In this document: piece by piece, positions 1-18,253 of the stretch
Position numbering within the stretch: position 1 is the first letter of the stretch
Layout: each line of letters begins with the position of its first letter
Source: Pseudomonas sp. BN411
GTDB taxonomy: Bacteria > Pseudomonadota > Gammaproteobacteria > Pseudomonadales > Pseudomonadaceae
NCBI RefSeq assembly: GCF_029871235.1
Contig: NZ_SSOM01000019.1
Span: 1-64,000, forward strand
DNA length: 64,000 nt
Direction: 5' to 3'
Translations under genes and position numbers: made by a program
Notes under the pieces: model-generated
What the model saw: only the letters and a program-made list of their open reading frames with translations
Database searches by the model: none
Told to the model about the DNA's origin: nothing

Positions 1-62
1 TGAATCGCCCCTAGTTTCGTAGACACCTCCAAGCCTCATAATGAGGCCCGTTAGGAGGTGCC

Positions 63-341
63 ATGAGCAACCAGCGTTACCCCGAAGAATTCAAAATCGA
101 AGCGGTCAAGCAAGTGACCGAGCGCGGCCTCCCCGTAGCCGAGGTGGCAGCGCGGTTAGGCATGTCGGTGCACAGCCTGTATGCCTGGATCAAGCGCTAC
201 GGCAAGCCCCAGGCGCAGCGGCAGCAAGAAGATGATCAGCAGGCCGAACTGCGTCGTCTACGCGCCGAACTCAAGCGAGTGACCGAAGAGCGAGACATCC
301 TAAAAAAGGCCGCCGCGTACTTTGCCAAGGAGTCCGGCTGA
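63..341 (+). CDS. IS3-family transposase OrfA (helix-turn-helix protein)
   Basis: This 92-residue protein is the DNA-binding OrfA of an IS3-family element; it recognises the inverted repeats. The N-terminal half carries the HTH_Tnp_1 type helix-turn-helix (residues about 5-45, with EEFKIEAVKQV and LGMSVHSLYAWIKRYG). The C-terminal half is a charged leucine-rich coiled coil (QAELRRLRAELKRVTEERDILKKA) used for dimerisation. An AGGAGG ribosome-binding site sits 6 bases before the ATG. Near the end of the gene a slippery heptamer A AAA AAG (302-308) is in the correct phase for a programmed -1 frameshift, giving the OrfAB fusion transposase. Length is normal for the family. Confidence 0.95.
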   Translation: MSNQRYPEEFKIEAVKQVTERGLPVAEVAARLGMSVHSLYAWIKRYGKPQAQRQQEDDQQAELRRLRAELKRVTEERDILKKAAAYFAKESG

Positions 342-367
342 AGTACGCCTTCATCAGCAAGCTGTCG

Positions 368-1213
368 GTGGAGTACCCGGTACGGCGTCTCTGCCAGACC
401 CTGAAAGTGCATCCCAGCGGTTACTACGCCTGGCTGGCCGAGCCGAAATCCGTACGCGCCAAGGAAGATCAGCGCCTGCTCGGGTTGATCAAACATGCCT
501 GGCTGGAAAGCGGTGGGGTCTACGGCTATCGCAAGATTCACGACGACCTGCGTGAGCTGGGAGAGTCCTGTGGCCGGCACCGCGTGGCTCGCCTGATGCG
601 GGGAGAAGGGCTGCGCTCGCAGACCGGCTATCGTCGGCGCCCCGGCTATTACGGCGGCCGGCCAACGGTAGCTTCGCCCAATCGCCTGGAGCGGCAGTTC
701 AACGTCAGTGAACCGAACAAGGTCTGGGTCACCGACATCACCTACATCCGCACCTATGAGGGTTGGTTGTATTTGGCGGTGGTGCTGGATCTGTTTTCAC
801 GCCAGGTGATCGGCTGGTCGATGAAGCCACGGATGTGCAGCGACCTGGCCATCGATGCCCTGTTGATGGCGGTCTGGCGGCGCAAGCCCAAGCAGGAAGT
901 GATGATCCACTCCGACCAGGGCAGCCAGTTCAGCAGCTCGGATTGGCAGAGTTTCCTCAAGGCCAACAACCTGATCAGCAGCATGAGCCGACGCGGCAAC
1001 TGCCACGACAACGCGGTAGCGGAAAGCTTTTTTCAGTTGCTGAAACGGGAACGCATCCGACGGAAGACCTACGGCACCCGCGAAGAAGCTCGGAGTGATG
1101 TGTTCGATTACATCGAGATGTTTTATAACCCCAAACGCCGGCACAGCAGCGCTATGCAGCTATCGCCAGTGGAGTTTGAAAAGCGCTATTTCCAGAGCTT
1201 GGAGAGTGTCTAG
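368..1213 (+). CDS. IS3-family transposase OrfB (DDE integrase core)
   Basis: This is the catalytic half of the IS3 transposase. The HTH_21-like N-terminal segment (GGVYGYRKIHDDL) is followed by a retroviral-integrase-type DDE domain: first Asp in WVTDITYI, second Asp in IHSDQGSQFSS, Glu in NCHDNAVAESFF. The C-terminus has the usual FYNPKRRHSSAMQLSPVEFE block. The frame is open upstream and lies -1 relative to orfA, so the protein is probably made mainly as an OrfAB fusion through the A AAA AAG site at 302-308. The start given here is a GTG with little ribosome-binding support; the fused start at 63 is more meaningful. All catalytic residues are present. Confidence 0.94.
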   Translation: MEYPVRRLCQTLKVHPSGYYAWLAEPKSVRAKEDQRLLGLIKHAWLESGGVYGYRKIHDDLRELGESCGRHRVARLMRGEGLRSQTGYRRRPGYYGGRPTVASPNRLERQFNVSEPNKVWVTDITYIRTYEGWLYLAVVLDLFSRQVIGWSMKPRMCSDLAIDALLMAVWRRKPKQEVMIHSDQGSQFSSSDWQSFLKANNLISSMSRRGNCHDNAVAESFFQLLKRERIRRKTYGTREEARSDVFDYIEMFYNPKRRHSSAMQLSPVEFEKRYFQSLESV

Positions 1214-1231
1214 GAAAGCCGGGGCGATTCA

Positions 1232-2739: not shown

Positions 2740-4608
2740 TCAGCGTTGCGCCGTCTTGTCCCAGCTCGGCAGCTTGAACACCCAGAAGGAACCGCCCTGG
2801 GCCACGGGCTTGGTCAGCTCGGCCATGTCGCCGCCCCAGAGGGGAACTGCGCCGCCGTAACCCACGGTCACGCCGATGTACTGCTCGCCGTCCTGCTCCC
2901 AGGTGATGGGCGGGGAGACGATGCCGCTGCCTGTCTGGAACTGCCACAGCTCCTTGCCGTTCTTGGCATCGAAGGCCTTGAGGAAACCGTCGCCGGTACC
3001 GGTGAACACCAGGTTGCCCTTGGTGGCCAGCACGCCGGCCCAGAGTGGCAGGCGTTCCTTGTGCTCCCAGACCACTTTGCCGGTGGTGGGGTTCATGGCT
3101 CGCAGAATGCCGACGTGGTCGTCATACATGCGCTTGATGCGGAAGCCCTGGCCGAGGTATGCCGAGCCCTTCTTGTAGGACAGTTCCTCGGTCCAGTAGT
3201 CCTCCTTCCAGTGGTTGGCCGGCACGTAGAACAGACCCGTGTCTTGGCTGTAGGCCATGGGGTTCCAGTTCTTGCCTCCGAGGAAGGGCGGCGAGACTTC
3301 CACCGGCTTGCCGTGCTTCTGGCCCGGCTCGGGCAGCTGCGGACGCTGGTTGGGGTTCTCAACCGGGCGGCCGGTCTTCATGTCGATATGGCTGGCCCAG
3401 GAGATGTTGTCGACAAAGGGGAAGGCGTTCTGCAGCTTGCCGTTGCTGCGGTCCACGACATAGAAGAAGCCGTTGCGGTCGGCGTGGGCGGTGGCCTTGA
3501 TGGTCTTGCCGTCCTTGCCCTTGTAGTCGAACAGCACCAGTTCGTTGTTGCCGGAGAAGTCCCAGGCGTCATTGGGGGTGTGCTGGTAGAACCACTTCAC
3601 CTCGCCGGTGCTCGGGTCTACACCTACCTGCCCGGAGGTGTAAAGGCTGTTGAAGTCCTTCGGATCTCCACCGTCCGCGGTGCGCGCCCAGCCGTTCCAG
3701 GGAGCCGGGTTGCCGGCGCCCACGATGATGGTGTTGGTCTCCGGGTCGAAGCTCGCGCTCTGCCAGGGGGCGCCGCCGCCGTGGCTCCAGGCTTCCTTCT
3801 TGCCGGTGGGGGAGTTTCGGTCGTCCGGCCAGGATGGTGCCTTGACGTCGCCGGTGGGGGTGCTGTCTTTACCGTTCAGGCGGCCCATGTGGCCTTCGAC
3901 GAAGGGGCGCATCCACACCTCTTCGCCGGTATCCGGATCGCGGGCATAGAGCTGGCCGACCACGCCGAACTCGTCGCCGGAGCTACCGTGGATCAGCAGG
4001 ACCTTGCCGGTCTTCTGGTCCTTCACGATGGTCGGTGCGCCAGTCATGGTGTAGCCGGCACCGTGATCGCCGAACTTCTTGTTCCAGACTACCTTGCCGG
4101 TCTTCTTGTCCAAGGCGACCACGCGGGCATCCAGTGTGCCGAAGAAAATCTTGTCGCCGTAGATGGCCGCGCCGCGGTTGATCACGTCGCAACAGGGCCG
4201 GATGTCATCGGGCAGGCGGTGGTTGTAGGTCCACAGGCGGTGGCCGGTCTTTGCGTCGAGGGCGAAGACGCGGGAATAGGAAGCGGTGACGTAGATCACC
4301 CCGTCGCTGACGATGGCCTGGGATTCCTGGCCGCGCTGCTTCTCGTCGCCGAAGGAAAAGGACCAGGCCGGGGCCAGCTTGAACACGTTGTCGGCGTTGA
4401 CCTGGGCCAGCGGGCTCCAGCGTTGGGCATTGGTGCCGAGGCCGTACTGCAGCACGTCGCCGGTGGTGTTGTGGTCGTTGGCGATGTCGTCCCAGGTGAC
4501 GCTCTTCGCGAAGGCGCCGCCGGCCGCGGCCAGGCCCCCGATGAGCAGCAGACAGCGGATGGTCGTGGCGAGCGGGTTGGCAGGAGAGGGTAGCGATCTT
4601 GTTGTCAT
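2740..4608 (-). CDS. exaA: PQQ-dependent (quinoprotein) ethanol dehydrogenase
   Basis: A 622-residue periplasmic quinoprotein alcohol dehydrogenase that oxidises ethanol and other primary alcohols using PQQ and calcium, passing electrons to a cytochrome c. Start MTTRS leads into a signal peptide (cleavage after GGAFA, mature KSVTWDDI). The eight-bladed propeller is marked by W-motifs. The vicinal disulfide pair is present ([10 protein letters not shown]), as is the catalytic Asp in [11 protein letters not shown]. The sequence is very close to the Pseudomonas aeruginosa ExaA I know (623 residues). No exaB cytochrome, exaC aldehyde dehydrogenase or pqq genes lie next to it; instead a pentapeptide gene follows. 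A divergent two-component system upstream probably controls it. Confidence 0.96.
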
Positions 4609-4907
4609 GGTTGCGATTCCCATAGTCGATGGATACGGGGCAATGTGCTGGCCCAGCGTCTCGAATAGTGGGATTCGCGCCTTTTCCTTGATACGGAAAT
4701 GCTCCCGCGCATGCCGGGAAAACTTCCCAGTGCGCCCATGAATTGGGCTTGCCACCAAATCCTCTGTCGCCACCTCCCGAGGAGCCAATACCAAGGGCGG
4801 CTAATGCGACTGCTACCAAGGTGCCGGTCGGGCATTACCAAGGTAGTAGAAGCTGGTCGTCAATTCGGCCCTAGCATGGTTGCACATGAACCAGAAGGAG
4901 GCCGTCC
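4609..4907. promoter_or_regulatory. divergent control region between exaA and the leader ORF/kinase genes
   Basis: About 300 bp with no gene, holding the promoters of exaA (leftward) and of the two-component operon (rightward). Three direct copies of TACCAAGG (4789, 4814 and 4836) are spaced 25 and 22 bp apart, about two helical turns. The last copy extends to the palindrome TACCAAGGTA. They are candidate binding sites for the LuxR-type response regulator encoded to the right. I did not identify -35/-10 boxes with confidence. Confidence 0.45.
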
Positions 4908-5000: not shown

Positions 5001-5015
5001 GTGGTGAGGCCCGCC

Positions 5016-6278
5016 ATGTCCGCGCTATGGCGAATCAACCTGCTGGTGACCCTGTTCTTCGCTCTGGTGGGTGCTGCCTGCCTGGCCCTGCTGCTGCGCC
5101 AGGCGGGGCAGGACGTGCACCGGGAGCTGATGGCCGCCGAAGCAGTGACGGAGTACCTGCGGGAAGCGGCGCGGCGTGATCCAGCGGCCTTGCAGCCGCA
5201 CCTCACCGATAGTCTGCGGCATGTGCGCGTCCACCGTCTGGACCAGCCCGCCGCCGAACCGGCGCCCGGTCCGTTGCAACGCTGGCTGGCCCACTGGCTC
5301 TATCCCGCCGGCAATGCAGACACCGAAACGTTGCTGCTGGCCGATGGCAGTAAGGTACGTATTAGCGTCGACCCGCGCGACGAAGTGGACGAGATACGCG
5401 ATTCCCTGCAGCAACTACTATTGCTTTTCGGCCTGGCCCTGGGTCTCAGCCTGATGGCTATCCGCTGGGCAGTGCGCCGGGGCTTGCGAGTGCTGGATGA
5501 ACTGCTGCGAGCCTTGCAGCAGGTGTCCCGTGGCGACTTGCAGGCCCGCCTTCCGCCTCATTCATCCGCCGAATCCCGGCGGCTGGCCGGACACTTCAAC
5601 CTGATGGCCACCTCCCTGGAGAGGGTAAAGACCGAGAATGCCGAACTCACCCACGCGCTGTTGGCCTTGCAGGAGCGTGAGCGTCGGCAACTGGCCCAGG
5701 CCCTGCACGACGACCTCGGTCAGTACCTGGCGGGCATCCGCGCCCAGCTCTTCCTATTGCGCAATGTCAGCGGGCAACTGCCGGTGGTGCATCGTACCGC
5801 CGAGGCCCTGGAGAACAATTGCCAGCACCTTCAGGATGGTTTTCGCGCATTGGTCCGCGATCTCTATCCGGTAATGCTGGAGCGCCTGGAGTTGGCCGAG
5901 GCATTTCACCTGCTCGGCCAGCAGTGGCAGCAGGCCCATGGCATCACCTGCCACATGCAGCTGGCCGACGAATTGCCGCCACTTTCTTGCGAAGCCAAGG
6001 CCCATCTCTACCGCCTGTTGCAGGAAGCCCTGACCAATGTGGTGCGCCATGCAGGCGCGAGCGAGGTGCGGGTGCGCCTTCGCGCCGGACGGCGACGGCT
6101 GCGCCTGCTGGTGCGTGACGACGGCCGAGGCGCCGGAAGCCTCGCCGGCGGAGGAATTGGCCTGCGCTCCATGCGCGAGCGCGCCCGCTGCCTGGGTGGC
6201 GAACTAAAACTGCTGACGCGCCCCGGCGCCGGACTGGCGCTGTGCCTCAGCGTGCCCGTGGAGGAGCTTGGACCATGA
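5016..6278 (+). CDS. sensor histidine kinase, NarL/UhpB type
   Basis: A 420-residue membrane kinase. The first membrane segment is at about residues 8-28, a periplasmic domain of about 100 residues follows, and the second segment is at about 131-149. Next come a HAMP linker (VSRGDLQARLP) and a HisKA_3 dimerisation domain with the phospho-acceptor His in LAQALHDDLGQYLAGIR (about residue 231). The HATPase domain has the N box EALTNVVRHA and G boxes DDGRGAG and GGIGLRSMRERA. ATG 5016 is preferred over GTG 5001 because GGTGAGG lies 6 bases before it. Its stop overlaps the start of the response regulator gene. Placement divergent from exaA suggests control of alcohol oxidation, as with the EraS/ErcS kinases of P. 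aeruginosa; that role is inferred. Confidence 0.9.
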   Translation: MSALWRINLLVTLFFALVGAACLALLLRQAGQDVHRELMAAEAVTEYLREAARRDPAALQPHLTDSLRHVRVHRLDQPAAEPAPGPLQRWLAHWLYPAGNADTETLLLADGSKVRISVDPRDEVDEIRDSLQQLLLLFGLALGLSLMAIRWAVRRGLRVLDELLRALQQVSRGDLQARLPPHSSAESRRLAGHFNLMATSLERVKTENAELTHALLALQERERRQLAQALHDDLGQYLAGIRAQLFLLRNVSGQLPVVHRTAEALENNCQHLQDGFRALVRDLYPVMLERLELAEAFHLLGQQWQQAHGITCHMQLADELPPLSCEAKAHLYRLLQEALTNVVRHAGASEVRVRLRAGRRRLRLLVRDDGRGAGSLAGGGIGLRSMRERARCLGGELKLLTRPGAGLALCLSVPVEELGP

Positions 6279-6907
6279 AAATCCTGTTGGTAGACGATCA
6301 TGCCGTGGTGCGCCAGGGCTACGCTGCGCTTCTCGGCGCCCTGCTACCGGAGGTACGGGTGAGCGAGGCAGGAAGCGGCGAGGAAGCGCTGCAGAAGGTG
6401 CAGGAAGATATCCCCAATCTAGTTATCGTGGACGTCGGGTTGCCCGGCATCAGTGGCCTGGAAGTCACCCGCCGGCTGCGCCGGCGCTTGCCGCAACTGC
6501 GTGTGTTGTTCTTCAGCATGCACGACGAGCTTCCCCTCGTACGCCAGGCCCTGGACGCAGGTGCTACCGGCTACATCACCAAGAGTTCTCCTCCGGAAGT
6601 GCTACTGGAAGCGGTGCGGCGCATCCTCGCCGGCTACCTCTACATCGAGCAGCCGCTTGCCACCCAGCTAGCCTGCCAGCAGACCGATGATCCGCGCCTA
6701 CGTGGTATCAGCCAGCGGGAATTCGAGATCTTCGTGATGCTCACCCGTGGCATGCCAGCCAGGGAGATCTCAGAGCGTCTGTGCATCAGCGGCAAGACGG
6801 TTTCCAACTACGTGACCCAGCTGAAAAGCAAATTGCAGGTGGAGTCCCAGGCGGAGATGGTGCACCTGGCGATTGATACCGGCGTATTGCGGATGGCAGC
6901 GCGTTAA
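6275..6907 (+). CDS. LuxR/NarL-family response regulator
   Basis: A 210-residue two-domain regulator. The receiver domain (residues 1-120) has the acidic pair DD at 7-8, phospho-acceptor Asp53 in VIVDVGLPG and Lys in GYITKSS. The C-terminal GerE/LuxR helix-turn-helix reads ISQREFEIFVMLTRGMPAREI...SGKTVSNYVTQLKSKL. The start at 6275 overlaps the kinase stop as ATGA, with GAGGAG 8 bases upstream, so the two are translationally coupled partners. By position and type it resembles the EraR/ExaE-like regulators of PQQ ethanol oxidation in Pseudomonas. The TACCAAGG repeats near exaA are its most likely local targets, by inference. Confidence 0.92.
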   Translation: MKILLVDDHAVVRQGYAALLGALLPEVRVSEAGSGEEALQKVQEDIPNLVIVDVGLPGISGLEVTRRLRRRLPQLRVLFFSMHDELPLVRQALDAGATGYITKSSPPEVLLEAVRRILAGYLYIEQPLATQLACQQTDDPRLRGISQREFEIFVMLTRGMPAREISERLCISGKTVSNYVTQLKSKLQVESQAEMVHLAIDTGVLRMAAR

Positions 6908-8081
6908 GTGGGAGCGGCAGCGCTGCCCTTGGCACTTGCTAGGTCTTCGGGCCGATTAAGCTCCCTCACAAGGGGAGAATTTTTTGTAGTGGTTTTATGA
7001 AGCGTCTGCTTCTGGCCCAGGCCGTGTAAAAACGCAGCGGGTGATGAATAGCTGGACGTTGGATTGTTTTAGCTGCACCCAACGGCGCAGCTTTAGCCCT
7101 TTCTCGACGCTTGAGTAGCGCCAGATCAGACTTTGCCCAGCAGGGCATACCGCTGGATGCCCTCTATCGCATCTGTCGCGCGCCGAGGAGGCTGGTGAGC
7201 TGGATAACTTCATCCACCTGCGTTGATCAGCAAGTTCGAATCTCAGCCACTTCCTGGAGCCTGAGCAGTCGCCAACAAATACCCACAAAGGGATGGCGTC
7301 ACCCTGGTCCCGCTACCCCAAAAATGGGAGTCGACACCGAAATTGGATTGACTGCCGTATCTATTTTCCCCCTGTCTAGAAGGGACACATCAGGGCTGCC
7401 GCGGCATTGACCCGTTCCCCAAGGGCTCGCAGGCGTGCCGGCATCATTTCCCCTGGGTGTATCGACTCCAGCGTGCTCCTCCCTGGACAGAGAACCATTG
7501 ACGGCCACAGCTCTTCCCCATCGCTGTGGTGGCCCTCTTTCTCGGCCATGTGCATCAACTAGATTTATAGATAGCCCCACCGTCGGACCTGGGGCTTTCG
7601 ACTGGCGCGGCATTTCCTCCCCCAATGCGATTGCTCGCAGGCCGCGCCGGCCGCTTTTTACCCCACCTATGAGCATCAACCATCAAGGACTTCAGTCTTC
7701 AACAACTCGAAGGCTTTCTGCTCGTTGCACATGTTCTCCAACAGATACACGCCCACACGCACGCCCCGAATAATGCTGGTGCTTGGCGCGGGTGGCTAGG
7801 TCGCCGCGCAGTTCAATCAAGGTAAGCGTCCGGCGATCCCACCTTGCTAACAAATTCTTCGTGTCGCCTGCCGGCCTTCGGGCGACCCGCCGCCTGTTTA
7901 CGATTGCCGCCCCATGCACGGCAAAGCAGCGCCGCACATGGACAACCGCTTGCCTGGTCTATACCGTTGCCTGCCTGAAAAATCAGCCCTAGTGCTTCTA
8001 CAGCGACCAACGTAGACGAATCCTAACTAGCCAAGGCGCGGCTTGATCGTCGCCCGGGCGCGATCCTCTAAAAGACGACTG
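6908..8081. other. 1.2-kb stretch with no intact gene
   Basis: No open frame here has convincing coding character. On the minus strand, 7676-7940 looks like a decayed gene. One frame reads TLTLIELRGDLATRAKHQ, and after a one-base phase change another frame continues GVYLLENMCNEQKAFELLK to a stop at 7676-7678. I do not recognise the parent family. The rest may be scar tissue at the left side of the accessory region. Confidence 0.4.
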
Positions 8082-8879
8082 ATGGCCACCAGCAGAGCAA
8101 ATAACAAGCTAACCGTATTTGGTAGCGGCACCGTCATCGGTGCTATGGGGGGATTGATAGGATTGGGTGGTGCGGAGTTCAGGCTGCCGCTGCTAATTGG
8201 TCTCTTCGGCTTCGGTGCGCTGGAGGCGGTCATCCTCAACAAGGCCATGAGCTTGGTCGTGGTCGCGACTGCACTGCCGTTCCGAGCCTTCAGCGTTCCC
8301 TACGCGGCTGTCGTCGAACGGTGGGACATCATCGTCACGTTGCTTGCCGGAAGCCTGGCAGGCGCCTGGTTCGGAGCTGGGTGGGCTACCAAGCTCAGAA
8401 GCCAGACGCTGTATCGGGTTCTGGCCGTGCTGTTGGTAGGCATCGCCGCCGCTCTTCTATTCGGCCATGAAGCCAGCGCGACCGGCACTCCGCTATTTCA
8501 GGGGGTGACCTTAGCCAGCGTGGGCATCATCGTCGGCTTTGGCATAGGCGTGGTTGCTGCCCTCATGGGCGTCGCAGGCGGAGAACTGTTGATCCCCACA
8601 ATCGTCCTGCTTTTTGGTGCAGACCTTAAGCTAGCTGGCAGCCTTTCACTGGCGGTGAGCTTGCCGACCATGATCGTGGGCTTCACCCGCTACAGCCGCG
8701 ACCAAAGCTTCTCGATCATTCGGGCTCAGTTGCCGTTCATCCTGATCATGGCAGTGGGCTCGATTGTCGGTACCTTCATCGGCGGTCAACTGCTTGGCTT
8801 GATTTCAACGAGCTACCTGCTCCCTTTGCTGGCCGCGATTCTGCTGATCTCGTCGGTAAAAGTCTGGCGCCATGGCTGA
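8082..8879 (+). CDS. TauE/SafE-family membrane permease
   Basis: A 265-residue polytopic membrane protein with about eight hydrophobic segments and the internal duplication typical of TauE/SafE (DUF81) transporters. The first half has IGAMGGLIGLGGAEFRLPLL and the second VVAALMGVAGGELLIPTIVL. Members move sulfite, sulfoacetate or other anions across the inner membrane; the substrate is unknown here. ATG 8082 is preferred; a TTG at 8043 would add 13 residues, and neither has a strong ribosome-binding site. It is isolated between the gene-poor stretch and an IS66 remnant, so it may be cargo of the mobile region. Confidence 0.85.
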   Translation: MATSRANNKLTVFGSGTVIGAMGGLIGLGGAEFRLPLLIGLFGFGALEAVILNKAMSLVVVATALPFRAFSVPYAAVVERWDIIVTLLAGSLAGAWFGAGWATKLRSQTLYRVLAVLLVGIAAALLFGHEASATGTPLFQGVTLASVGIIVGFGIGVVAALMGVAGGELLIPTIVLLFGADLKLAGSLSLAVSLPTMIVGFTRYSRDQSFSIIRAQLPFILIMAVGSIVGTFIGGQLLGLISTSYLLPLLAAILLISSVKVWRHG

Positions 8880-8938: not shown

Positions 8939-9457
8939 TCACTCTCGGCCAGGGTTTGGGCACCATCGATGCGGTAGCAGATCTGCAATTTCACTTGCCC
9001 GCTGTGTCGGCAGGCGCATGAGGACGTCCTTCAGGTAGGCATACGGATCGTGCCCGTTGAGCCGTGCTGACTGGATCAGACTCATGATCGCCGCCGCCCG
9101 TTTGCCGCTGCGCAGCGACCCGGCAAACAGCCAGTTCGAGCGACCGAGCGCCCACGGTCGGATCTGGTTCTCGACCCAATTGTTGTCGATGGGCACGACA
9201 CCGTCCTCGAGGTAGCGAGTCAGGGCTACCCAACGCTTCAAGCTGTAGTCAAGTGCCTTGGCAGTCGCTGACCCGTCAGGCACCAAGTCGCGCTGGGCCA
9301 GCATCCAGGTATGCAGCGTTTCGAGTAGCCATTTACGGACGACGTTGGCGTTGATGCCGTGGTTCAAGGCGACACTGGCCACCGAGGCTCCTGGCTGGAG
9401 ACACTCCTGGACGACCTGGGCCTTGAAGGGCTTGGGGTAAGAGTTTCGCTGGCGCAT
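8939..9457 (-). pseudogene. IS66 TnpA-TnpC deletion fusion
   Basis: This 172-codon frame starts as IS66 TnpA (MRQRNSYPKPFKAQVVQ, helix-turn-helix through NHGINANVVRKWL, residues 1-44). It then switches, near base 9325, to the C-terminal part of the IS66 TnpC transposase: ALDYSLKRWVALTRYLEDG, then IDNNWVENQIRPWALGRSNW with the catalytic Glu, ending LLPHRWCP. The first two catalytic aspartates and all of TnpB are lost. The junction is in frame, so a fusion protein with a DNA-binding head could still be made, though no activity is implied. Confidence 0.8.
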
Positions 9458-9483
9458 GAGGATCCGCTGGCAAGGGCTAAAAA

Positions 9484-9511
9484 TGGTGTCCACTTAAATA
9501 GGTGGACACCA
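9484..9511 (-). terminator. hairpin with T-run upstream of the IS66 remnant gene
   Basis: A 10-bp inverted repeat (TGGTGTCCAC 9484-9493 and GTGGACACCA 9502-9511) is followed on the minus strand by TTTTT. It lies between the IS66 end and the TnpA start and could stop transcription entering the element from outside. Confidence 0.55.
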
Positions 9512-9757: not shown

Positions 9758-10360
9758 TCACACTGGGGTTAAGCGTTGCGGGCCGGCCACGCCGAGGATC
9801 AAGGCCGTGAGAGAGGAATTTGCAGTGGCCAGCTCGACACCCCCGCGAAGTAGCTCCCCACTGACGGCGCTGACTGCACCCAGAAGGGCAATACATCGTA
9901 GATGCAGCTGATCCGGATGTAGCTGCGAATAGGGCGCCAAAGCATGCTCCCATATCGCTACATGGTTTGCAGCCAGTCGTCGCTGAACTGTGGTCATTGC
10001 TTCATTGCCATTCAAGGCCGCTTGTAATGCATGCAACTCCTTGCCAGCGCCAAGAGCGTGGTTTATGTAGGCTTCACTGATCGCCCTTGCGATTCCGGGC
10101 AAATCACGCTTCGCCCGCTCAAGCGAGAATTGCAAAACTTCAACTTGATGCGCATCTGCCTGCTCACACAGCGCAATTAACAGCCCGGCTCGCGAATCGA
10201 AATGTCTGTAGACGACCGTGTGGGTTATGCCAACTTGATGCGCCAGCGAGCAAAGGGTCAAACCCTCTGTGCCTTGGTTACGTACCACTAGCAAGGCCGC
10301 ATCCAGCAACTGATTGCGGCGTTCGCATTTCGGCAGGCGTAATGCATGACTCGCACTCAT
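9758..10360 (-). CDS. TetR-family transcriptional regulator
   Basis: A 200-residue regulator. The TetR N-terminal helix-turn-helix occupies residues about 10-58 (RRNQLLDAALLVVRNQGTEGLTLCSLAHQVGITHTVVYRHFDSRAGLL), and a helical ligand-binding domain follows. ATG 10360 has a strong GGGGAGG site 7 bases upstream, which the longer frame lacks. The gene starts 2 bp past the stop of the Cys-rich GDCC gene, so it appears to be the last gene of a merT-GDCC-tetR operon. A TetR protein in a mercury-type operon is unusual; its ligand and targets cannot be told. Confidence 0.87.
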   Translation of the reverse strand: MSASHALRLPKCERRNQLLDAALLVVRNQGTEGLTLCSLAHQVGITHTVVYRHFDSRAGLLIALCEQADAHQVEVLQFSLERAKRDLPGIARAISEAYINHALGAGKELHALQAALNGNEAMTTVQRRLAANHVAIWEHALAPYSQLHPDQLHLRCIALLGAVSAVSGELLRGGVELATANSSLTALILGVAGPQRLTPV

Positions 10361-10362
10361 TT

Positions 10363-10584
10363 TCACACCTCCCCTTGATGATGCACGGGTTGTAGTTGGC
10401 GGGACGGGCACCGTACCGAGCCATACGAACAAAACACACAGCAGTCACCGGGCTTGGGTCGCAGCAAGGCATGGCAGCGACTGCACTCATGGAAGTACTC
10501 ACAGGCGTCGGTTCGCATGCGTACCCGTGCAATAAATCCACAGTAAGGACAGCGCAAGTCGCAATCGAGTGTAAGAGCGTCCAT
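10363..10584 (-). CDS. small Cys-rich GDCC-motif protein of mer-type loci
   Basis: A 73-residue protein with ten cysteines arranged as CxLRCPYC, an ACEYFHECSRC block and the signature GDCCVFCSYGSVRCP. Small proteins with GDCCxxCSYGxxxCPP motifs are common next to mercury-resistance genes in Proteobacteria. They probably bind metal or zinc ribbons, but the function is not established to my knowledge. The start at 10584 has GAGGTCAGG just upstream. It lies between merT-like (stop 10626) and tetR (start 10360) on the same strand. Confidence 0.8.
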   Translation of the reverse strand: MDALTLDCDLRCPYCGFIARVRMRTDACEYFHECSRCHALLRPKPGDCCVFCSYGSVRCPSRQLQPVHHQGEV

Positions 10585-11006: not shown

Positions 11007-11038
11007 AGTCTAGTTTCTGTATCTAGGTACGGTTTCAA
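11007..11038 (-). promoter_or_regulatory. MerR-type operator-promoter between merT and merR
   Basis: On the minus strand, TTGAAA (11033-11038) and TAGACT (11007-11012) are separated by 20 bp, longer than the sigma-70 optimum, as in MerR-controlled promoters. Within the spacer lies a 16-bp dyad, CCGTACCTAGATACAG read on the minus strand (11017-11032), whose mismatches are all transitions. This is the expected MerR site controlling merT and also merR. Confidence 0.7.
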
Positions 11039-11047
11039 GAGGTTCGT

Positions 11048-11446
11048 ATGGCCGAAGTTTTCAGCATCGGCAAGCTTGCAGAGCGGGCCGGCGTAGGGGT
11101 TGAGACAGTGCGCTATTACCAGCGTCGAGGGCTCTTGGAGGAACCTCGAAAAGGAATGGGCGGGCAGAGGCGCTATGCGCCAGATCAGCTCAAACGCTTG
11201 TGCTTCATCAAACGTGCGCAGGCCCTGGGCTTCACTTTGGCAGAGGTTAGTAGCCTCCTGGCGATAGCAGACGGGCAGCATTGTATGGATGCGCGAATGC
11301 TGGCAGTCGAAAAATTGCACGTGATCGAGATGAAACTGGCCGCACTCACGGCAATGCACCAGGCTTTATGCGCACTCGTTCAGCGATGCGAGGTGAATCC
11401 CTCCGAGCAAGCTTGCCCGCTCATAGAGACCTTGATCGAGGATTGA
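11048..11446 (+). CDS. merR: MerR, mercury-responsive transcriptional regulator
   Basis: A 132-residue MerR-family activator-repressor. The N-terminal winged helix-turn-helix reads FSIGKLAERAGVGVETVRYYQRRGLL, followed by the long dimerisation helix. Cys79, Cys114 and Cys123 have spacings of 35 and 9, identical to the Hg(II)-binding Cys82, Cys117 and Cys126 of Tn501 MerR, and the last lies in the same CPLI context. That supports mercury rather than lead, cadmium or copper sensing. It is transcribed divergently from merT; the shared spacer contains the MerR operator. Confidence 0.92.
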   Translation: MAEVFSIGKLAERAGVGVETVRYYQRRGLLEEPRKGMGGQRRYAPDQLKRLCFIKRAQALGFTLAEVSSLLAIADGQHCMDARMLAVEKLHVIEMKLAALTAMHQALCALVQRCEVNPSEQACPLIETLIED

Positions 11447-11465
11447 TTTACTTGGACCTCATCGG

Positions 11466-11723
11466 TCAGAGCTTTCGAACAGCTCCGCGAACCGATCCAG
11501 ACAGACAGCGTCCGTATGCCCAGCTGCCATACCCATGTGCGAGGAAACTGCGGTATTCATTGAGCGCCGCCATCTCGGCAGCGGAAATGCGTTGGAACTC
11601 CAGTACCTGATCATCGGACCAATGCACCATCGCCTGTTCCAGAAAAACCACCATTGCGATGTGTGTCGCCGAGACGTTCAACGACAGGCGATGTAGCTCG
11701 GCCCAGGTGAAAGGATTGTCCAT
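11466..11723 (-). CDS. hypothetical protein, 85 residues
   Basis: A small protein starting MDNPFTWAELHRLSLNVSATHIAM. ATG 11723 follows AGGAG by 6 bases, good support for real translation. It appears soluble, with helical, mildly acidic character and no recognised domain. It converges with merR (19 bp between stops) and follows another small gene at 11771-12013 on the same strand, 47 bp away, so the two may form an operon. Function unknown. Confidence 0.6.
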   Translation of the reverse strand: MDNPFTWAELHRLSLNVSATHIAMVVFLEQAMVHWSDDQVLEFQRISAAEMAALNEYRSFLAHGYGSWAYGRCLSGSVRGAVRKL

Positions 11724-11770
11724 TAAACGCTCCTGGCACGTTCGCTTGAAAAGCTGACGTGGTTCGGTGA

Positions 11771-12013
11771 TCACCTCGTCTTCCGACTAGCCAACACCAG
11801 AGTGATAGTTCCGTCGGCGCTTGATGAAACGTAAGGATCAAGAGTCGGGAACCCGTCCGCCGCCCGTTCCACCAGCAACTCCCCCGCAAGGCGAATCCGC
11901 TCACGGGTAGGGTTCGGGAGCCTGATGCTCTCTTGCGCATAACCGTTGGCTGCCACTTCTGCGGCAGCTCGTTCGAACAGGTCATCCAGCAGGACCAGGG
12001 TTGCTCTATCCAC
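11771..12013 (-). CDS. hypothetical protein, about 80 residues
   Basis: The conserved-looking part begins VDRATLVLLDDLFERAAAEVAANGYAQE and continues with a charged helical segment and a hydrophobic end (GTITLVLASRKTR). I place the start at GTG 12013, the first plausible initiation codon before this block; the longer frame to 12118 reads through low-quality sequence. Ribosome-binding support is weak. It is upstream of, and co-directional with, the 85-residue hypothetical gene. No family recognised. Confidence 0.5.
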   Translation of the reverse strand: MDRATLVLLDDLFERAAAEVAANGYAQESIRLPNPTRERIRLAGELLVERAADGFPTLDPYVSSSADGTITLVLASRKTR

Positions 12014-12526
12014 AGTTTTTCCCGTTAACGCGAATGTTCTACGTCGATGTCGGGTTATCCACACCGATTTCCCACACCCGGAGTGGCTGGGACTCCAAAG
12101 ACGCTGCTGCAACCCCAAGCAAGGGCGCGCCTGAACTGATGGGTGAGTGGGAGGACTCCGGAAAGTGCGAATGACTGGGACCGCGACGGCTGGCCAGTTG
12201 GGGGCACGGGGACAAGCATGCCGAGCGTTTTTCCAACGTCAGCAAAAGCAACTGAGCTCGATTCAAAACAAGTCGAGGCCAAGCTTCATACAGCTGGACG
12301 AGTGAGGACTGAAACTCAATCTTGGGTGAAGAAAACCCATCTTCGGGGCCAATGAGGACAGTGGCTCGGCGTGCGGCTGGCGTTAGAGGGTTTATCGAGA
12401 GGTGGCCTTTAGGGGCGTGGAAGGTCTGCGTCACGCAGACCAAAGGACCGCCATAGCTAGGCACGACATGGGGAAATGGCGAAGCTCCTGGCAGGGTAAA
12501 CCCAACACTACTAGGACGAGCGTTTG
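12014..12526. other. gene-poor stretch
   Basis: About 510 bases with no gene I can support. A minus-strand open frame (12039-12554) lacks a ribosome-binding site and codon character. The sequence separates the small hypothetical genes from the IS21 remnant. Confidence 0.4.
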
Positions 12527-12741
12527 TTAGGGCGTGCTCCCTTGAGCGCCCCAAGGGAAATACGCCATAAAGGCACTGAGCTTGTGGAAAACCTCACGCC
12601 GCTGATACACCGGCTGAGTCGCTTCCGGTGCCCTGACCCATTTGCGGATCGTGTTGCGCGACAACCCGTGCGCTTGGAAATCTCATGCAGCGACAGCTTG
12701 TCGCGAAAGTACATCCGCCGAATTTTTCCCATCATTTCCAT
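12527..12741 (-). pseudogene. istA: IS21-family istA remnant, frameshifted and truncated
   Basis: From ATG 12741 the frame reads MEMMGKIRRMYFRDKLSLHEISKRTG, the N-terminus of an IS21-type IstA transposase. Near base 12668 one base is missing and the next frame continues GLSRNTIRKWVRAPE, then VYQRREVFHKLSAFMAYFP, before a stop at 12527-12529. Only the helix-turn-helix part survives; the integrase core and istB are gone. Confidence 0.8.
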
Positions 12742-12761
12742 GCTGATCACCCCTGTGTTTT

Positions 12762-12782
12762 CCTGCTCAAAAATTGAGCAGG
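12762..12782. repeat. palindrome upstream of the istA remnant
   Basis: CCTGCTCAA (12762-12770) and TTGAGCAGG (12774-12782) form a perfect 9-bp inverted repeat with a 3-base loop, 21 bp upstream of the istA start. It is probably part of the left end of the former IS21 element, with control or transposase-binding function. Confidence 0.5.
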
Positions 12783-12995
12783 TACAGTGAAACACCAGGG
12801 TCAGTTTTCGGTCAGCGGCAACAAACTGCTATTGCAAGCATGGTCAGGCCAGGGTGGTTGGGAACAATCTTGAAGCGCGTGACCGTAGGGTTACTTGCAC
12901 CCAATTTGCGCCGAGCATCTGGCATTTTCTAAGGCTGGTCCAAGGAACCGAAGATGTGAGATAAAACGCGAAAATCCAGTAGGGACGGATCAATT

Positions 12996-14237
12996 TTGCG
13001 CGCTACAGAAGTTTTCAAACCACAAGGCACACCTATCCACACTCTCGTGCGTGAGCCGGTGGCTGTTGAGTCTGTTCAGGACTTTGACGATGCGATTGAA
13101 GAGACTGGCAAGCTGGTCAGGGTTGTAGGTCCGTCCAAATCCGGAAAAACGGTCTTCGTGGCTACGAAGGCGCAAGACCGTGACCTCATTCGCGTATCTG
13201 CTTCTGGTATCAACAGTGGGGCCGATCTCTGGAACAGGGTATTGGCGAGCGCAGGTGCGGAGGCTCAGCGGACTACATCTGTTGAGCTTGGAGGAACCGT
13301 TGGCGGAGAGGCCGGGGGTAAGGGCTCTGCAGGTGTGATATTCGCCAAAGTGGAAACTGAGGGTAAGGTAAAGGCTGACGTTTCCGCCAAGCGTACTACA
13401 GCAAGTACTCAGGCCTCAGACCCACTCCAAGCCGTTGTTCAACTCCTCGCACGGCAAGAGGTTTGGGTCTTCATTGATGATTTTCATTACGCGACTCCTG
13501 ATGTACAAACTCAGCTGGCTGAACAGATAAAGTTTGCCGCCGAGGAGGGGGTTCAGCTCATCATTGCGTTAATCCCTGGCCGCTCGGAAGACATCCTCAG
13601 AAGGAATACAGATCTTCAAGGACGCATCGTCGACATTCCTTTCACATATTGGAATATCGACGATTTGTCTGAGATTGCTGAGCATGGATTTCCATTTTTG
13701 GGAGTACGGCTGGAGCCGGGCAGTGCGCAGCTTTTAGCTAAGGAGGCAGCAGGAACTCCGCAGCTGATGCAAGCCCTCTGCCTAGAGCTTGCACGGGAGC
13801 TGGGGGCCCGTGAAACTCTGGACCCACCGCAACATTTTGAGATGGGAGCAGATAAAGTAGCCACTATTTGTACGAAGTTGGCTAGCAATCGGGCTGATTT
13901 CAGTTCCACCATAGACCAAATGCGAAAGGGGCCACCAACGCGTGGAACTTCGCGCAAAAGCTATCCTGATACCAACGGGAAAGTTCGCGATGTCTACGAA
14001 CTGCTCATTGCAGCCTTCGGAATGGACCCTCCGCAGCTCACTTTCACTTACGATGAATTGCAGAAACGTGTAGACCAATTAGCCGGGGCCGATGTCGCTA
14101 GCGTATGGGAATCCGTTCGGCACATGTCGGACATTGCCAACAACATGAGCGCCGAGAAGAAGCTCGATTTTGCAGGCGACCTGCGCTGGGTTTCAATCCT
14201 CGACCCATATCTGTTTTTCGCGTTGCGCTGGGGATAG
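12996..14237 (+). CDS. STAND-like P-loop ATPase, function unknown
   Basis: A 413-residue soluble ATPase. After a short N-terminal region (FKPQGTPIHTLVRE) come Walker A GPSKSGKT (45-52) and Walker B VWVFIDDFHYA (156-166). An Orc/Cdc6-like RGR-type element (DLQGRI) follows, then a GTPQLMQALCLELA block resembling the GxP motif of STAND ATPases, and a C-terminal helical or winged-helix part. Between the Walker motifs, residues 95-140 form a Gly/Lys/Ser-rich insertion (GGTVGGEAGGKGSAG). No effector domain is fused and no partner gene is adjacent. The start is TTG 12996, with GGACGGA upstream; no earlier ATG fits. Base composition is lower in GC than core genes, suggesting acquisition. A defence role is possible but unproven. 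Confidence 0.75.
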   Translation: MRATEVFKPQGTPIHTLVREPVAVESVQDFDDAIEETGKLVRVVGPSKSGKTVFVATKAQDRDLIRVSASGINSGADLWNRVLASAGAEAQRTTSVELGGTVGGEAGGKGSAGVIFAKVETEGKVKADVSAKRTTASTQASDPLQAVVQLLARQEVWVFIDDFHYATPDVQTQLAEQIKFAAEEGVQLIIALIPGRSEDILRRNTDLQGRIVDIPFTYWNIDDLSEIAEHGFPFLGVRLEPGSAQLLAKEAAGTPQLMQALCLELARELGARETLDPPQHFEMGADKVATICTKLASNRADFSSTIDQMRKGPPTRGTSRKSYPDTNGKVRDVYELLIAAFGMDPPQLTFTYDELQKRVDQLAGADVASVWESVRHMSDIANNMSAEKKLDFAGDLRWVSILDPYLFFALRWG

Positions 14238-14785
14238 CTTTCCGCTCAGCAAGGCTGAACATAGGGATCGGCTTAAGACACGCAGCTCAATGTGGAGATC
14301 AAAGACCGCATGTGAGCTGCGCGGCTTGATCGTCCAAAGCGCGAGCGACTTGCGCCACCCTAGCAATGCATGTGTGCAGCAGGATGGCGGTTTACTGGCC
14401 TCTGGCACCCTCTCATTGGTTTAACCTGCAAAAGACGTGTTTCGTCCAGAAGCACGCCTTCCCAGAGCTTTATCCCTCTGAACCGAGTTCTAGCCGAGCC
14501 ATTCTTGGATGAGGCCGGCAGTCTGCCGAATGGACACCAGCGCTCAGGCACCGATGCTATATTAAACAGGCTGCCCATAAGCTTCCTCTCCCGGCGAATT
14601 TACCGGCGATGAAACCTGGTACACGGCCCCTATGGGGCCGCTAGAACCTGGCTGTATGGCGGTTTAGCCCACAGGCACTGAAGATATCCACAGCCTCAGC
14701 GACACTTCGAATCGGTCGATTGGGTGATCTCACGTAGCTGGGGGGACTTCCAGGCTGATGAACGTTATCCACAGCTGAGAACGTG
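14238..14785. other. gene-poor stretch between ATPase and antitoxin genes
   Basis: About 550 bases with no convincing gene. It holds a 7-bp GC hairpin (CGGCCCC/GGGGCCG, 14624-14640) without a T-run. TTATCCACA-like sequences (for example 14765-14773) lie just before the antitoxin gene. Confidence 0.4.
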
Positions 14786-15247
14786 ATGCCTACCACTGCC
14801 CAATCAAACCAACTCCTTCCGACCGCGGACCCTATTGAGCTCCTGATCGGCCGAGAAAGAATTGGAAATCCACTCCAAATCTTTGAACTTATCGAGACCG
14901 GAATTCCGATCACAAATGCCGCGCGGGCTCTATCTGAGCTCGACTTGATGGGAAATCAGCAGGTTCTGGCCAAGATCATTGGCATGTCACCAAGAGCACT
15001 TTTGAGAAGGTCTCGGGTTGCCGACAAAGCATTGAGTCCCACGCTGAGCAGCCGCCTACTCACCTTCGTTCAAATTTTGATGCAGGCAGAAGTGGTGTTT
15101 GGCTCAAGGCAACTGGCCGCAAAGTGGATCACAAAACCTGCACTTGGACTCGAAAGTTATCCACCGATTGACCTGCTTACCAACCCGCAAGGGGCGGAGA
15201 TTGTTGCTGACTTCTTGGCTCGAATTGAGTACGGCGTTTATCATTGA
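14786..15247 (+). CDS. Xre/MbcA/ParS-type toxin-binding antitoxin, orphan
   Basis: A 153-residue protein of the antitoxin family that pairs with RES-domain toxins. The N-terminal part is helical and Xre-like (ARALSELDLMGNQQVLAKIIGMSPRALLRRSR). The C-terminus has the MbcA/ParS toxin-binding DUF2384 pattern (GSRQLAAKWITKPALGLE, PIDLLTNPQGAEIVADFLARIEYGVYH). A RES toxin gene normally follows at once or overlaps; here only about 45 bases separate its stop from the end of the convergent tniQ gene, so the toxin is missing. ATG 14786 directly follows a GTG that is also possible. Confidence 0.83.
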   Translation: MPTTAQSNQLLPTADPIELLIGRERIGNPLQIFELIETGIPITNAARALSELDLMGNQQVLAKIIGMSPRALLRRSRVADKALSPTLSSRLLTFVQILMQAEVVFGSRQLAAKWITKPALGLESYPPIDLLTNPQGAEIVADFLARIEYGVYH

Positions 15248-15293
15248 GCATTGACTTAAAACACTTATTGACTTGAAATCTTGAATCAATGTC

Positions 15294-16259
15294 TTACGCG
15301 AATGAAGAATGGTGTGTGTCAATAAGACAAGATCGAACAACACCCAAGTTGCTAAGGCCATCGTGCTCAAGGCTATGTAGAAATTCACCATAACTAGAAA
15401 ATAACACAACCATAAATCCGATATGATGCGAAATCGGTAAGTTAAAGCAACCCGCCCCGATACTCTGATTGAGAATTTGCTGTATACATCGCTCGATATA
15501 CGGATAGCGCGATACTTCTTGCCCCATCGCTCGTGAAATAAACTCCACAGCCCTTCCTATATCATCCTCCGTCTTTAGCTCGATTCCGACCTCGCTAAGT
15601 CTGAGCCAGTACCGTTCTAGGATACTGCTCCACTCAAACTGGAAATTACTTGAGTAAACGTCAAATACAATTTTTGCGTATTTTTGCAAAAACTCATCCG
15701 AGTTCGGCTCAGATTCGTACTGGTTCGCGCTAGTTCCACATTTGCAACGATCCCAAGGAATTCCAATATAAAGGTGCTCATTGCTGAATGGTGACTCGCA
15801 GAAAGGACAAGAAGATACCAATTTTGTGTTGTGGACAGGGCACACATAAACATCAAAAAACTGGTGACTTCTCCTCCAGTATGCAAACCCCAATTTACTT
15901 AAATCCTCCCTGACACAGTCCGGGCACAAATTATTATTTGGCCCACGAAGGTACTCATTAAGTTTTGAATAATTTCGGATTCCATAGAGCCATTCAGGGG
16001 ACTTATTAAATCCATCATATGCTATCCACATGGATGGAACATAACCTGTATGGCCAATAAGCAGTCGACGGAATCCCGGCATTCCGTCCCATCCTAAAAA
16101 CTCCGAAAGCCTTCTGAGCTTATGTAAAGTCCAGTCGCCATTGGAGACGGCAAAGCCCATTTTTTTGTAAAGACTATTGGTATTCCCACTACCCGAGAAA
16201 ATTAGGTTCCTGGAGAAATAGGAATCCAAAGTCTCATCCGGTTCAGGTTGGATGAGCAT
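15294..16259 (-). CDS. TniQ/TnsD-like transposon target-site protein
   Basis: A 321-residue protein of the TniQ family, which selects the target for Tn7-like transposons. The N-terminal ETLDSYFSRNL element is followed by zinc-binding cysteine and histidine pairs: CPDC (112-115), CPVH (140-143), CPFC (151-154) and CKCG (172-175), with the FAYWRRSHQ and VYVCPVHN blocks typical of TniQ. It is shorter than Tn7 TnsD (about 508 residues). The gene is strikingly AT-rich against its neighbours, a sign of transfer. It reads away from the Tn7-like end beside glmS; no tnsA, tnsB or tnsC gene is nearby. ATG 16259 lacks a good ribosome-binding site; a GTG at 16328 would read through a large hairpin. Confidence 0.85.
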   Translation of the reverse strand: MLIQPEPDETLDSYFSRNLIFSGSGNTNSLYKKMGFAVSNGDWTLHKLRRLSEFLGWDGMPGFRRLLIGHTGYVPSMWIAYDGFNKSPEWLYGIRNYSKLNEYLRGPNNNLCPDCVREDLSKLGFAYWRRSHQFFDVYVCPVHNTKLVSSCPFCESPFSNEHLYIGIPWDRCKCGTSANQYESEPNSDEFLQKYAKIVFDVYSSNFQFEWSSILERYWLRLSEVGIELKTEDDIGRAVEFISRAMGQEVSRYPYIERCIQQILNQSIGAGCFNLPISHHIGFMVVLFSSYGEFLHSLEHDGLSNLGVVRSCLIDTHHSSFA

Positions 16260-16347: not shown

Positions 16348-16393
16348 GCGACAGACTTTATTCTCTAGCGACAGACTTTATTGTCTAAGACCA
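16348..16393 (-). mobile_element. Tn7-like transposon end at the glmS attachment site
   Basis: Two tandem 20-bp repeats (16348-16367 and 16368-16387) differ at one base. Read on the minus strand, the outer one contains GACAATAAAGTCT, identical to the core of the Tn7 TnsB-binding site, followed by GTCGC. The distance from this core to the presumed terminus at about 16393 is 8 bases, as in Tn7. The terminus lies about 24 bp after the glmS stop, the standard Tn7 insertion point. The terminal bases read TGG rather than TGT, suggesting decay. Confidence 0.75.
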
Positions 16394-16417
16394 CCGTTCG
16401 TTCAAGCAGGCTGTGGA

Positions 16418-18253
16418 TTACTCCACGGTCACCGACTTGGCCAGGTTTCGCGGCTGGTCGACGTCGGTGCCCTTGAGCACGGCGACGTAGTAGGACAGCA
16501 GCTGCAACGGGATGGTGTAGAGGATCGGCGCCAGCGCGTCGTCGATGTGCGGCATGGCCACGACATGGACGCCCTCGCCGTTGTCGATGCCGGCTTCGCG
16601 GTCAGCGAAGACGATCAGCTCGCCACCACGCGCACGCACTTCCTGCAGGTTGGACTTGAGCTTCTCAACCAGCTCGTTGTTCGGCGCAACGGTGACCACC
16701 GGCATGTCGCTGTCCACCAGCGCCAGCGGGCCATGCTTGAGTTCACCGGCCGGATAGGCTTCAGCGTGGATATAGGAAATCTCCTTGAGCTTCAGCGAGC
16801 CTTCCATCGCCACCGGGTACTGGGCGCCACGGCCGAGGAACAGGGTGTGGTGCTTCTCGGCGAACAGCTCGGCCACCTTTTCCACGGTCTTGTCCATGGC
16901 CAGGGCTTCGCCCAGGCGGGTCGGCAGGCGACGCAGTTCTTCCACCAAGCCGGCTTCCACGCCCGCCTCGAGGGTGCCGCGCACCTGGCCGAGGGACAGG
17001 GTCAGCAGCATCAGGCCGACGAGCTGGGTGGTGAAGGCCTTGGTTGAGGCCACGCCGATTTCCGGACCGGCCTGAGTCAGCAAGGTGAGGTCGGATTCGC
17101 GCACCAGGGAGCTGGTGCCAACGTTGCAGATGGCCAGGCTGGTCAGGTAGCCCAGCTCCTTGGCATTGCGCAGGGCGGCCAGGGTGTCGGCGGTTTCACC
17201 GGATTGGGAAATGGTGACGAACAGGGTGTCCGGCTGCACCACTACCTTGCGGTAACGGAATTCGCTGGCCACTTCGATCTGGCAGGGGATACCGGCCAGG
17301 CCTTCGAGCCAATAACGGGCAACCATGCCGGCGTGATAGCTGGTGCCACAGGCAACAATCTGCACATTGCGCACTTTGGCGAACAGCTCGGCGGCACGCG
17401 GGCCGAAGGCGTTGACCAGGACGTGGTCGGTGCCCAGACGGCCTTCCATGGTGCGCTGCACGACCTTGGGTTGCTCGTGGATTTCCTTGAGCATGAAGTG
17501 GCGGTACTCGCCCTTGTCGGCGGCTTCGGCACCTTCGTGGTACTGCACCTGCTCGCGCTGCACGGCGTGACCCTGCTCGTCCCAGATTTGCAGGCTGTCA
17601 CGGCGGATCTCGGCGATATCCCCTTCTTCCAGGTAGATGAAGCGGTCGGTGACCTGGCGCAGGGCCAACTGGTCGGAGGCGAGGAAGTTCTCGCCCAGGC
17701 CCAGGCCGATCACCAGCGGGCTGCCGCTGCGGGCGGCGAGCAGGCGGTCCGGCTGGCTGGCGCTGATCACCGCCAGGCCATAGGCGCCATGCAATTCGGG
17801 CACGGCAGCCTTGAGGGCGTCGGCGAGGTCAGGGATGGTCTTCAGCTTGTGATGCAGCAGGTGGACGATGACTTCGGTGTCGGTGTCCGAGGTGAAGACA
17901 TAGCCCAGGGCCTTGAGCTGTTCGCGCAGGGCTTCGTAGTTCTCGATGATGCCGTTGTGGACAACTGCCAGTTGCTCACCGGAGAAGTGCGGGTGGGCAT
18001 TACGCTCGCTGGGGGCACCGTGGGTGGCCCAGCGGGTGTGGGCGATGCCCAGGCGACCGAGCAGGGGCTGCTCGGCCAGGGCCTGCTCCAGCTCGGCGAC
18101 CTTGCCGACGCGACGGCGGCGGTCCAGCGTGCCGTCATTGGTGAAGACGGCCACACCAGCGCTGTCATAGCCGCGGTATTCGAGGCGCTTCAGGCCCTCG
18201 ACCAGGATGGGGGTGATGTTGCGCTCGGCGATGGCGCCAACGATGCCACACAT
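16418..18253 (-). CDS. glmS: glutamine-fructose-6-phosphate aminotransferase
   Basis: A 611-residue cytoplasmic enzyme making glucosamine-6-phosphate from fructose-6-phosphate and glutamine, the first step toward UDP-GlcNAc for peptidoglycan and lipopolysaccharide. The N-terminal Ntn glutaminase domain starts MCGIVGA with nucleophile Cys2 after Met removal. Two SIS sugar-isomerase domains follow ([21 protein letters not shown]), and the end reads [11 protein letters not shown]. Its last codons are the binding region for Tn7 TnsD, and a Tn7-like end lies just downstream. It follows glmR on the same strand by 15 bp, so the two are probably one transcript. Full length. Confidence 0.98.

Follow-up and report, generated by a model that had tools for sequence, protein, structure and literature searches.

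What do two short repeats placed directly after glmS represent: the end of a mobile element, the leftover of one, or sequence native to the gene? The window considered here, a stretch of 64,000 nucleotides, is contig C75 of the source genome (G000), from base 1. As originally predicted, it contains two tandem 20-bp repeats about 24 bp past the glmS stop codon, at 16348-16387. They are direct repeats on the minus strand, the outer one at 16368-16387 and the inner one at 16348-16367, and the terminus ends at 16393, with a gap of 24 bp to the stop codon (16418-16420). The minus strand of the window reads TGGTCTTA-GACAATAAAGTCT-GTCGC-TA-GAGAATAAAGTCT-GTCGC, and past glmS, starting from 16393, it runs TGGTCTTAGACAATAAAGTCTGTCGC TAGAGAATAAAGTCTGTCGC.

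16418..18253, minus strand: glmS, host gene with the attTn7 target at its 3' end (Pfam SIS, two stretches, and glutamine amidotransferase domains)
16368..16393, minus strand: right (glmS-proximal) terminus, formed by the 8-bp end TGGTCTTA and the outer TnsB-type site (inverted 26-bp counterpart at C43 15629-15654, 3 mismatches)
16348..16367, minus strand: inner TnsB-type site of the right end, a 20-bp tandem repeat (11 of 11 glmS-inserted elements have such a pair, spaced 19-20 bp)

The core GACAATAAAGTCT is a 13-mer that also belongs to the end sequence of Tn7, in which the third terminal base is T. With at most one mismatch, it is present at two places in the whole 6.37 Mb assembly, both corresponding to the window repeats, and the reversed control pattern of GACAATAAAGTCT gives zero matches in the same assembly. 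A search of the window alone, with up to two mismatches, is a weaker test, giving 2 matches versus 0.38 expected, a number also reached by 4 of 100 shuffles. Very probably, the repeats form the right end, bound by TnsB, of a complete Tn7-like transposon of about 30.8 kb inserted after glmS, driven by TnsABCD with a 4-bp stagger and provided with a short TniQ as a probable alternative selector. The first part of this reading, a Tn7-like end at the glmS attachment site, had been predicted and is borne out by the location of the far end and of tnsABCD on contig C43; that the repeats belong to a real Tn7-like transposon in attTn7, as one of its ends, is thus supported. The direct observations comprise the two ends, the set of genes, the empty sites and the 4-bp repeats.

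A contig break inside the element, in a complete insertion sequence (IS), forms the start of the window.

1..1231, plus strand: insertion sequence of the IS3 family, at the edge of the contig; on C43 the element continues at 1232-15654 (1231 bp 100% identical to the C43 start; CCT flanks on both contigs)

Indeed, C43 begins with the same 1231-bp IS, 100% identical and in the orientation opposite to the C75 copy; the assembly is a draft, and the join between the two contigs runs through this multicopy IS. Full copies of this IS were found 16 times in the assembly, 16 of 16 at contig ends, with 8 exposing one side and 8 the other. The three bases outside the IS are CCT on both C75 and C43 and in 0 of the 14 other ends, so that among the 8 x 8 IS-bounded contig ends this pairing is unique to C75 and C43, the sole other matching pair being CGA. 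The latter is common to the IS-bounded ends of contigs C23 and C35, which may adjoin, and the remaining 12 ends have no partner with the same three bases.

The far end of the element lies at C43:15505-15654 and includes three spaced sites, at 15505, 15558 (2 mismatches) and 15629. Its terminus, TGATCTTAGAGAATAAAGTCCGTCGC, equals the window terminus in inverted orientation at 23 of 26 bases (C43 15629-15654), and a sensor kinase gene is located outside it. Since this kinase adjoins glmS in two relatives (G013 and G003), the element can be taken to comprise C75:1-16393 and C43:1232-15654, that is 30,816 bp with one IS counted. The original prediction had proposed to search for an inverted copy of the repeats together with a 5-bp duplication: the inverted copy is present, on a separate contig because the assembly breaks in the IS at window position 1, but the duplication reads as 4 bp instead.

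In G013 and G003, which belong to the same genus, the sensor kinase of the far flank adjoins glmS directly, without the element. In G013, the overlap between the two flanks of G000 is 5 bp, which is read as a 4-bp duplication plus one chance match, while G003 differs by one base at the site and provides adjacency only. Repeats of this type after glmS are present in 4 of 18 genus genomes, namely G000, G017, the relic in G014, and G004 from another lineage; by that pattern, 13 of the 18 lack them, and G011 was unreadable, as the glmS pattern matched elsewhere.

These observations bear on two readings in which no complete element exists. The repeats could be native terminator or regulatory repeats of glmS, as they stand directly past the gene and the empty sites of G013 and G003 contain a palindrome resembling a terminator. 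However, relatives' empty sites were where the original prediction could have failed, and those of G013 and G003 are free of the repeats, which moreover occur in only 4 of the 18 genus genomes; this reading was therefore rejected and is extremely improbable. Hardly more credible is a solo relic end of a lost element, left with no partner. No second end was found in the window with up to two mismatches, or in the genome with up to one, and such a relic seems to exist in a relative (G014), but the partner end and tnsABCD are present on C43 and the outer flanks lie next to each other in G013 and G003, so that this possibility was also rejected. The right end just past glmS in G014 (L042) is the one most like that of the window, GCGCAGC following the inner site in both. 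Searches of that genome for TnsB at 1e-40 and for TniQ at 1e-5 gave no match, and its right end is apparently the relic of a lost relative.

Returning to the complete transposon, the gene order on C43 from the IS inward is a fragment of an inositol-phosphatase-type gene, a DUF2971 protein, TnsD, TnsA, TnsB, TnsC, cargo and the far end. The transposition genes, whose roles are assigned from homology, are the following.

C43 3527-5206, minus strand: TnsD, 559 aa (PF15978 5.9e-32; TniQ 1.4e-09)
C43 5946-6908: TnsA (family profile against Tn7 TnsA, 1f1z 5e-07 and 1t0f 5.2e-07)
C43 6905-8920: TnsB (family profile against Tn7 TnsB, 7pik 7.4e-12)
C43 8917-10263: TnsC, a 448-aa P-loop protein (weak AAA matches below cut-off; start overlapping the tnsB end)
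Window 15294..16259, minus strand: short TniQ-family protein of about 321 aa, just inside the right end (Pfam TniQ 6.6e-12; PADLOC TniQ 1.9e-13; same position in 11 of 11 glmS-inserted elements)

As TnsA, TnsB, TnsC, TnsD and the second TniQ are all encoded by uninterrupted frames, the element does not look like a remnant, judging from its sequence. TnsC is kept beside tnsB in relatives, and tnsD is divergent from tnsABC in the 11 glmS-inserted elements. In TnsB, D398 and E432 are invariant in 17 sequences and align to the DRG and VES segments of Tn7 TnsB (7pik); we take them to be the second and third acidic, catalytic residues, and D311, also invariant, is our guess for the first acidic one. 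Single-sequence scans with Pfam gave no supporting family for TnsB or TnsA, the Pfam Mu-transpos_C model did not find this TnsB in its own genome, and an NCBIfam scan gave no supporting match for any of the five transposition proteins, short TniQ included. No cas effector was matched among the element proteins scanned, a subset of the open reading frames, with Pfam, PADLOC (which includes TniQ models named for CAST types) and NCBIfam. The element thus has the traits by which Tn7-like transposons are recognised: a heteromeric TnsA and TnsB transposase, a TnsC AAA+ regulator beside tnsB, a TniQ/TnsD target selector, and TG...CA ends with asymmetric site arrays, in G000 the termini TGG and TCA with two tandem sites on the right and three spaced sites on the left. 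It also has that of Tn7 proper, insertion into attTn7 downstream of glmS in one orientation.

In the mechanism that we propose, TnsD (559 aa, on C43) would recognise and bind the 3' end of glmS, and TnsC would couple it to the TnsA and TnsB transposase. TnsA and TnsB would then cut and join the DNA, with the right end landing 22-26 bp past the stop codon in the clade to which the element belongs. The transposase of this clade would join the two ends at positions staggered by 4 bp, which would in turn leave a 4-bp duplication around each insertion, and the short TniQ just inside the right end may work as a second target selector.

The G000 element is part of a clade from the Pseudomonadaceae in which the members inserted after glmS have two genes of the TniQ family. 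Of the 398 Pseudomonadaceae genomes sampled, 17 contain a homologous TnsB, at 18 places that include the one in G000, as do 2 of 72,556 plasmid records (3 places). A class-wide sample of 369 genomes added one genome of another family, the second match being G000 itself, and one further locus (L021) came from a search of genome contigs. Eleven elements, including that of G000, sit after glmS, each with two tandem right-end sites, 20 bp apart in 10 and 19 bp apart in G292, and in 11 of 11 the right end is 22-26 bp past the stop codon. Their right terminus is TG[G/A] in 10 of 11 and TAG in G360. The change from TGT to TGG originally pointed out in the window is therefore real as regards the G at the third base, but it is not a sign of decay, since TG[G/A] is the common terminus among relatives and TGG is thus the usual end of the clade. 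In a related system, the terminal TG is described as the widely conserved part, preceding an 8-bp terminal stretch (PMC10201428).

In G017, two clade members lie back to back after glmS (L074-L076, L165), with TnsB proteins 57% and 42% identical to that of G000; they are separated by exactly CCCC (4 bp), which indicates that the same attachment site was used twice. Two sets of clade genes are present on plasmid NZ_CP087161.1 (L169, L171), where the first element carries genes annotated for copper and arsenic resistance and has its TnsB gene split by an IS5 copy. On CP027478.1 (L170), the element lies inside a gene annotated as a helicase in the empty backbone (L174), and its 1-kb flank matches 116 plasmid records.

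Both flanks of the G000 element carry the same four bases.

16394..16397, no strand: target-site duplication, glmS side, CCGT on the plus strand and ACGG read from glmS (same 4 bp at G000:C43 from 15655; single in the empty site of G013)

The same rule was applied to the other clade members: the far end was located by its inverted site, each terminus was placed 11 bases outward from its site, and the flanks were compared; in G282 and G292 the site register is off by one base and the terminus was set at TG/CA by eye. This delimited 15 of the 23 TnsB-bearing loci seen, that is G000, G217, G360, G067, G365, G282, G265, G292, G391, G309, G299, G017, the second G017 element (G017b), H1 (NZ_CP087161.1, CAGA) and H2 (CP027478.1, GAGA), and a direct repeat of exactly 4 bp flanks 15 of 15. 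Both TG and CA are present in 12 of the 15; the right end is TAG in G360 and H1, and the left end is TTA in G391. The other 8 loci (G063, G319, G300, G109, G194, L021, the second NZ_CP087161.1 element and G412) were left undelimited, with an end missing, unrecognised or outside the sequence taken. In the pairs G067/G309 and G360/G299, TnsB is near-identical and the duplications differ, so that the two members of each pair derive from separate insertions. Exact empty sites for H2 are available in the NZ_CP015879.1 and NZ_CP040126.1 backbones, which contain GAGA once and allow no 5-bp reading. For H1, the empty site in NC_022739.1 agrees and is ambiguous by one base. NZ_CP095924.1 gave no exact left-flank match and was left aside, and a plasmid search with the G299 flank gave no match.

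A 2024 review gives a 5-bp target-site duplication for "Tn7 and all related elements" and states that in Tn7 the duplication is as long as the stagger between the joints (PMC11406308); attTn7 and the 5-bp duplication are also described in PMC2918618. By the same relation, we infer a 4-bp stagger from the 4-bp repeat. Alternatively, these could be ordinary Tn7-like elements with a 5-bp duplication, the 4 bp resulting from a terminus misplaced by one base at one end. A 5-bp repeat can in fact be read in 7 of 15 elements once a single terminal base is assigned to the flank, including that of G000, for which, taken alone, such a reading can be made and the G013 overlap is 5 bp. However, the required shift is at the right end in 5 of 15 (G217, G391, G299, G017, H1) and at the left end in 3 of 15 (G000, G017b and H1, the latter by either end), and in 8 of 15 neither works, making a 5-bp reading impossible; 4 bp in one register fits 15 of 15. 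The number of elements allowing a shift is about that given by chance, namely about 6.6 of 15 if each matches one time in four. H2 is unambiguous against its exact empty site, and the same 11-base rule yields 5 bp in 3 of 3 delimited controls. As no single terminus placement fits all elements, the 5-bp duplication was rejected, and we regard it as very unlikely.

The controls come from another Tn7-like lineage, with a TnsB match in 34 of 398 genomes, from which 11 loci were taken (G004 and 10 others). Both ends were found in 3 of 11 (G004, G191, G314), all with exactly 5 bp and none with a 4-bp repeat in that register. Far ends were not found in about 36 kb past tnsB for G263, G362, G320, G094, G194 and G013, the right ends of the last three being candidates only; G155 gave no right end, and the G005 contig ended after 9.4 kb. 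This lineage shares with the clade the 11-base terminus rule and similar core sites, and G004 is also inserted in attTn7, whereas it differs in the 5-bp duplication and in having three right-end sites in G004 and G314. The G004 TnsB shows 22% identity over its matched part, and in an unrooted TnsB tree of 20 clade members and 7 controls, in which the G017b row is long-branched and G094 has an unusual make-up, the two groups fall on two sides of one branch with a support of 100/100.

As to the short TniQ, its sequence suggests that it is probably an alternative target selector. It shows about 25-35% identity over partial matches, compared with 42-57% for TnsB, and this faster divergence would fit a changing target. 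Three delimited copies lie away from glmS, the two plasmid copies and G299, with no glmS in the 6.6 kb taken for the latter. Because the short TniQ frame is shortened in H2 (191 aa open) and a frame at the tnsD position is present in all three of H1, H2 and G299, a role of the short TniQ on plasmids is a proposal only; a scan of genome contigs with this protein gave no confirmed match. A tentative scheme, which we do not favour beyond a possibility, is that the clade has a 4-bp strand-transfer stagger with attTn7 and the terminus rule kept, and uses TnsD for glmS and the fast-diverging short TniQ for plasmids in place of TnsE.

The accessory region to the left of the end was also expected to be Tn7-like cargo, and this is supported by the extent of the element, which includes in the window:

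14783..15247, plus strand: Xre/MbcA/ParS-type antitoxin-like protein, cargo or accessory (Pfam PF09722 3.8e-11; similar gene in stretches from 3 relatives, L134, L139, L140)
12996..14237, plus strand: AAA ATPase resembling the candidate defence family PDC-S59 (PADLOC 1.1e-22)
9758..10432, minus strand: TetR-type regulator (Pfam 6.5e-07)
8939..9493, minus strand: shortened IS66-family transposase, 184 aa (Pfam DDE_Tnp_IS66, profile positions 206-283 of 284 only)
8043..8879, plus strand: TauE/SafE-type exporter (Pfam 5.9e-26)
5001..6907, plus strand: sensor kinase and response regulator of a two-component system, in two overlapping frames (NCBIfam matches, all under curated cut-offs)
2740..4794, minus strand: PQQ-dependent alcohol dehydrogenase (NCBIfam TIGR03075 5.8e-237, over cut-off)

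Further cargo of the element includes a PifA-like KAP NTPase, a methyl-directed restriction enzyme and a PDC-S31 candidate; defence systems as cargo are the topic of PMC8649781. The Xre/MbcA/ParS-type gene adjoins tniQ and is perhaps a stability module of the clade. A plasmid megablast of the right-hand cargo gave no match.

The novelty of these elements is the 4-bp duplication of the clade, which departs from the 5 bp used to recognise Tn7-like elements and thought typical of the whole Tn7 group; no 4-bp duplication in a Tn7-like element is reported in the titles and abstract openings of the open-licence PMC papers that searches for one listed. Duplication length reflects the distance between the two joining events on target DNA. 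The natural 4-bp clade and the 5-bp lineage share their terminus rule, and in the latter at least G004 also inserts at the same glmS site, so that comparing the two would be a convenient way to find what in TnsB determines the stagger. In practice, software relying on a 5-bp repeat to delimit Tn7-like elements would overlook or misplace the ends of this clade.

Compared with known systems, the element resembles Tn7 of Escherichia coli (TnsABCD+E) in its position at attTn7 just past glmS, in the TnsA, TnsB and TnsD homologues recognised by profile, in a TnsC-like P-loop protein, in its TG ends, where 8 bp of terminal sequence precede the first site, and in the GACAATAAAGTCT core. It differs from Tn7 in the 4-bp rather than 5-bp duplication, in a tnsD divergent from tnsABC, in the short TniQ at the right end, and in having two right-end sites, whereas Tn7 has four. 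A copper Tn7-like transposon of P. syringae was reportedly described by Aprile et al. in 2021. P. putida KT2440 also contains a Tn7-like cluster, and we take glmS to be near it. In this cluster, PP_5404-5407 correspond to tnsC, tnsB, tnsA and tnsD, the same gene set and order as here by locus number alone, and heavy-metal resistance genes are associated with it there and in strain W619 (PMC3056050, PMC4230525). The KT2440 derivative EM42 has had its Tn7-like genes deleted (PMC4230525). If the Tn7-like genes of KT2440 belong to the clade, a standard laboratory strain already carries one such element. Finally, Faure et al. 2023 described dual tniQ-tnsD Tn7-like transposons, with 1,048 loci having tandem genes (PMC10293859). 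The G000 element is similar to these in combining one TnsD with one further TniQ but, unlike the tandem loci, it has the short tniQ at the right terminus, with most of the cargo between tniQ and tnsD.
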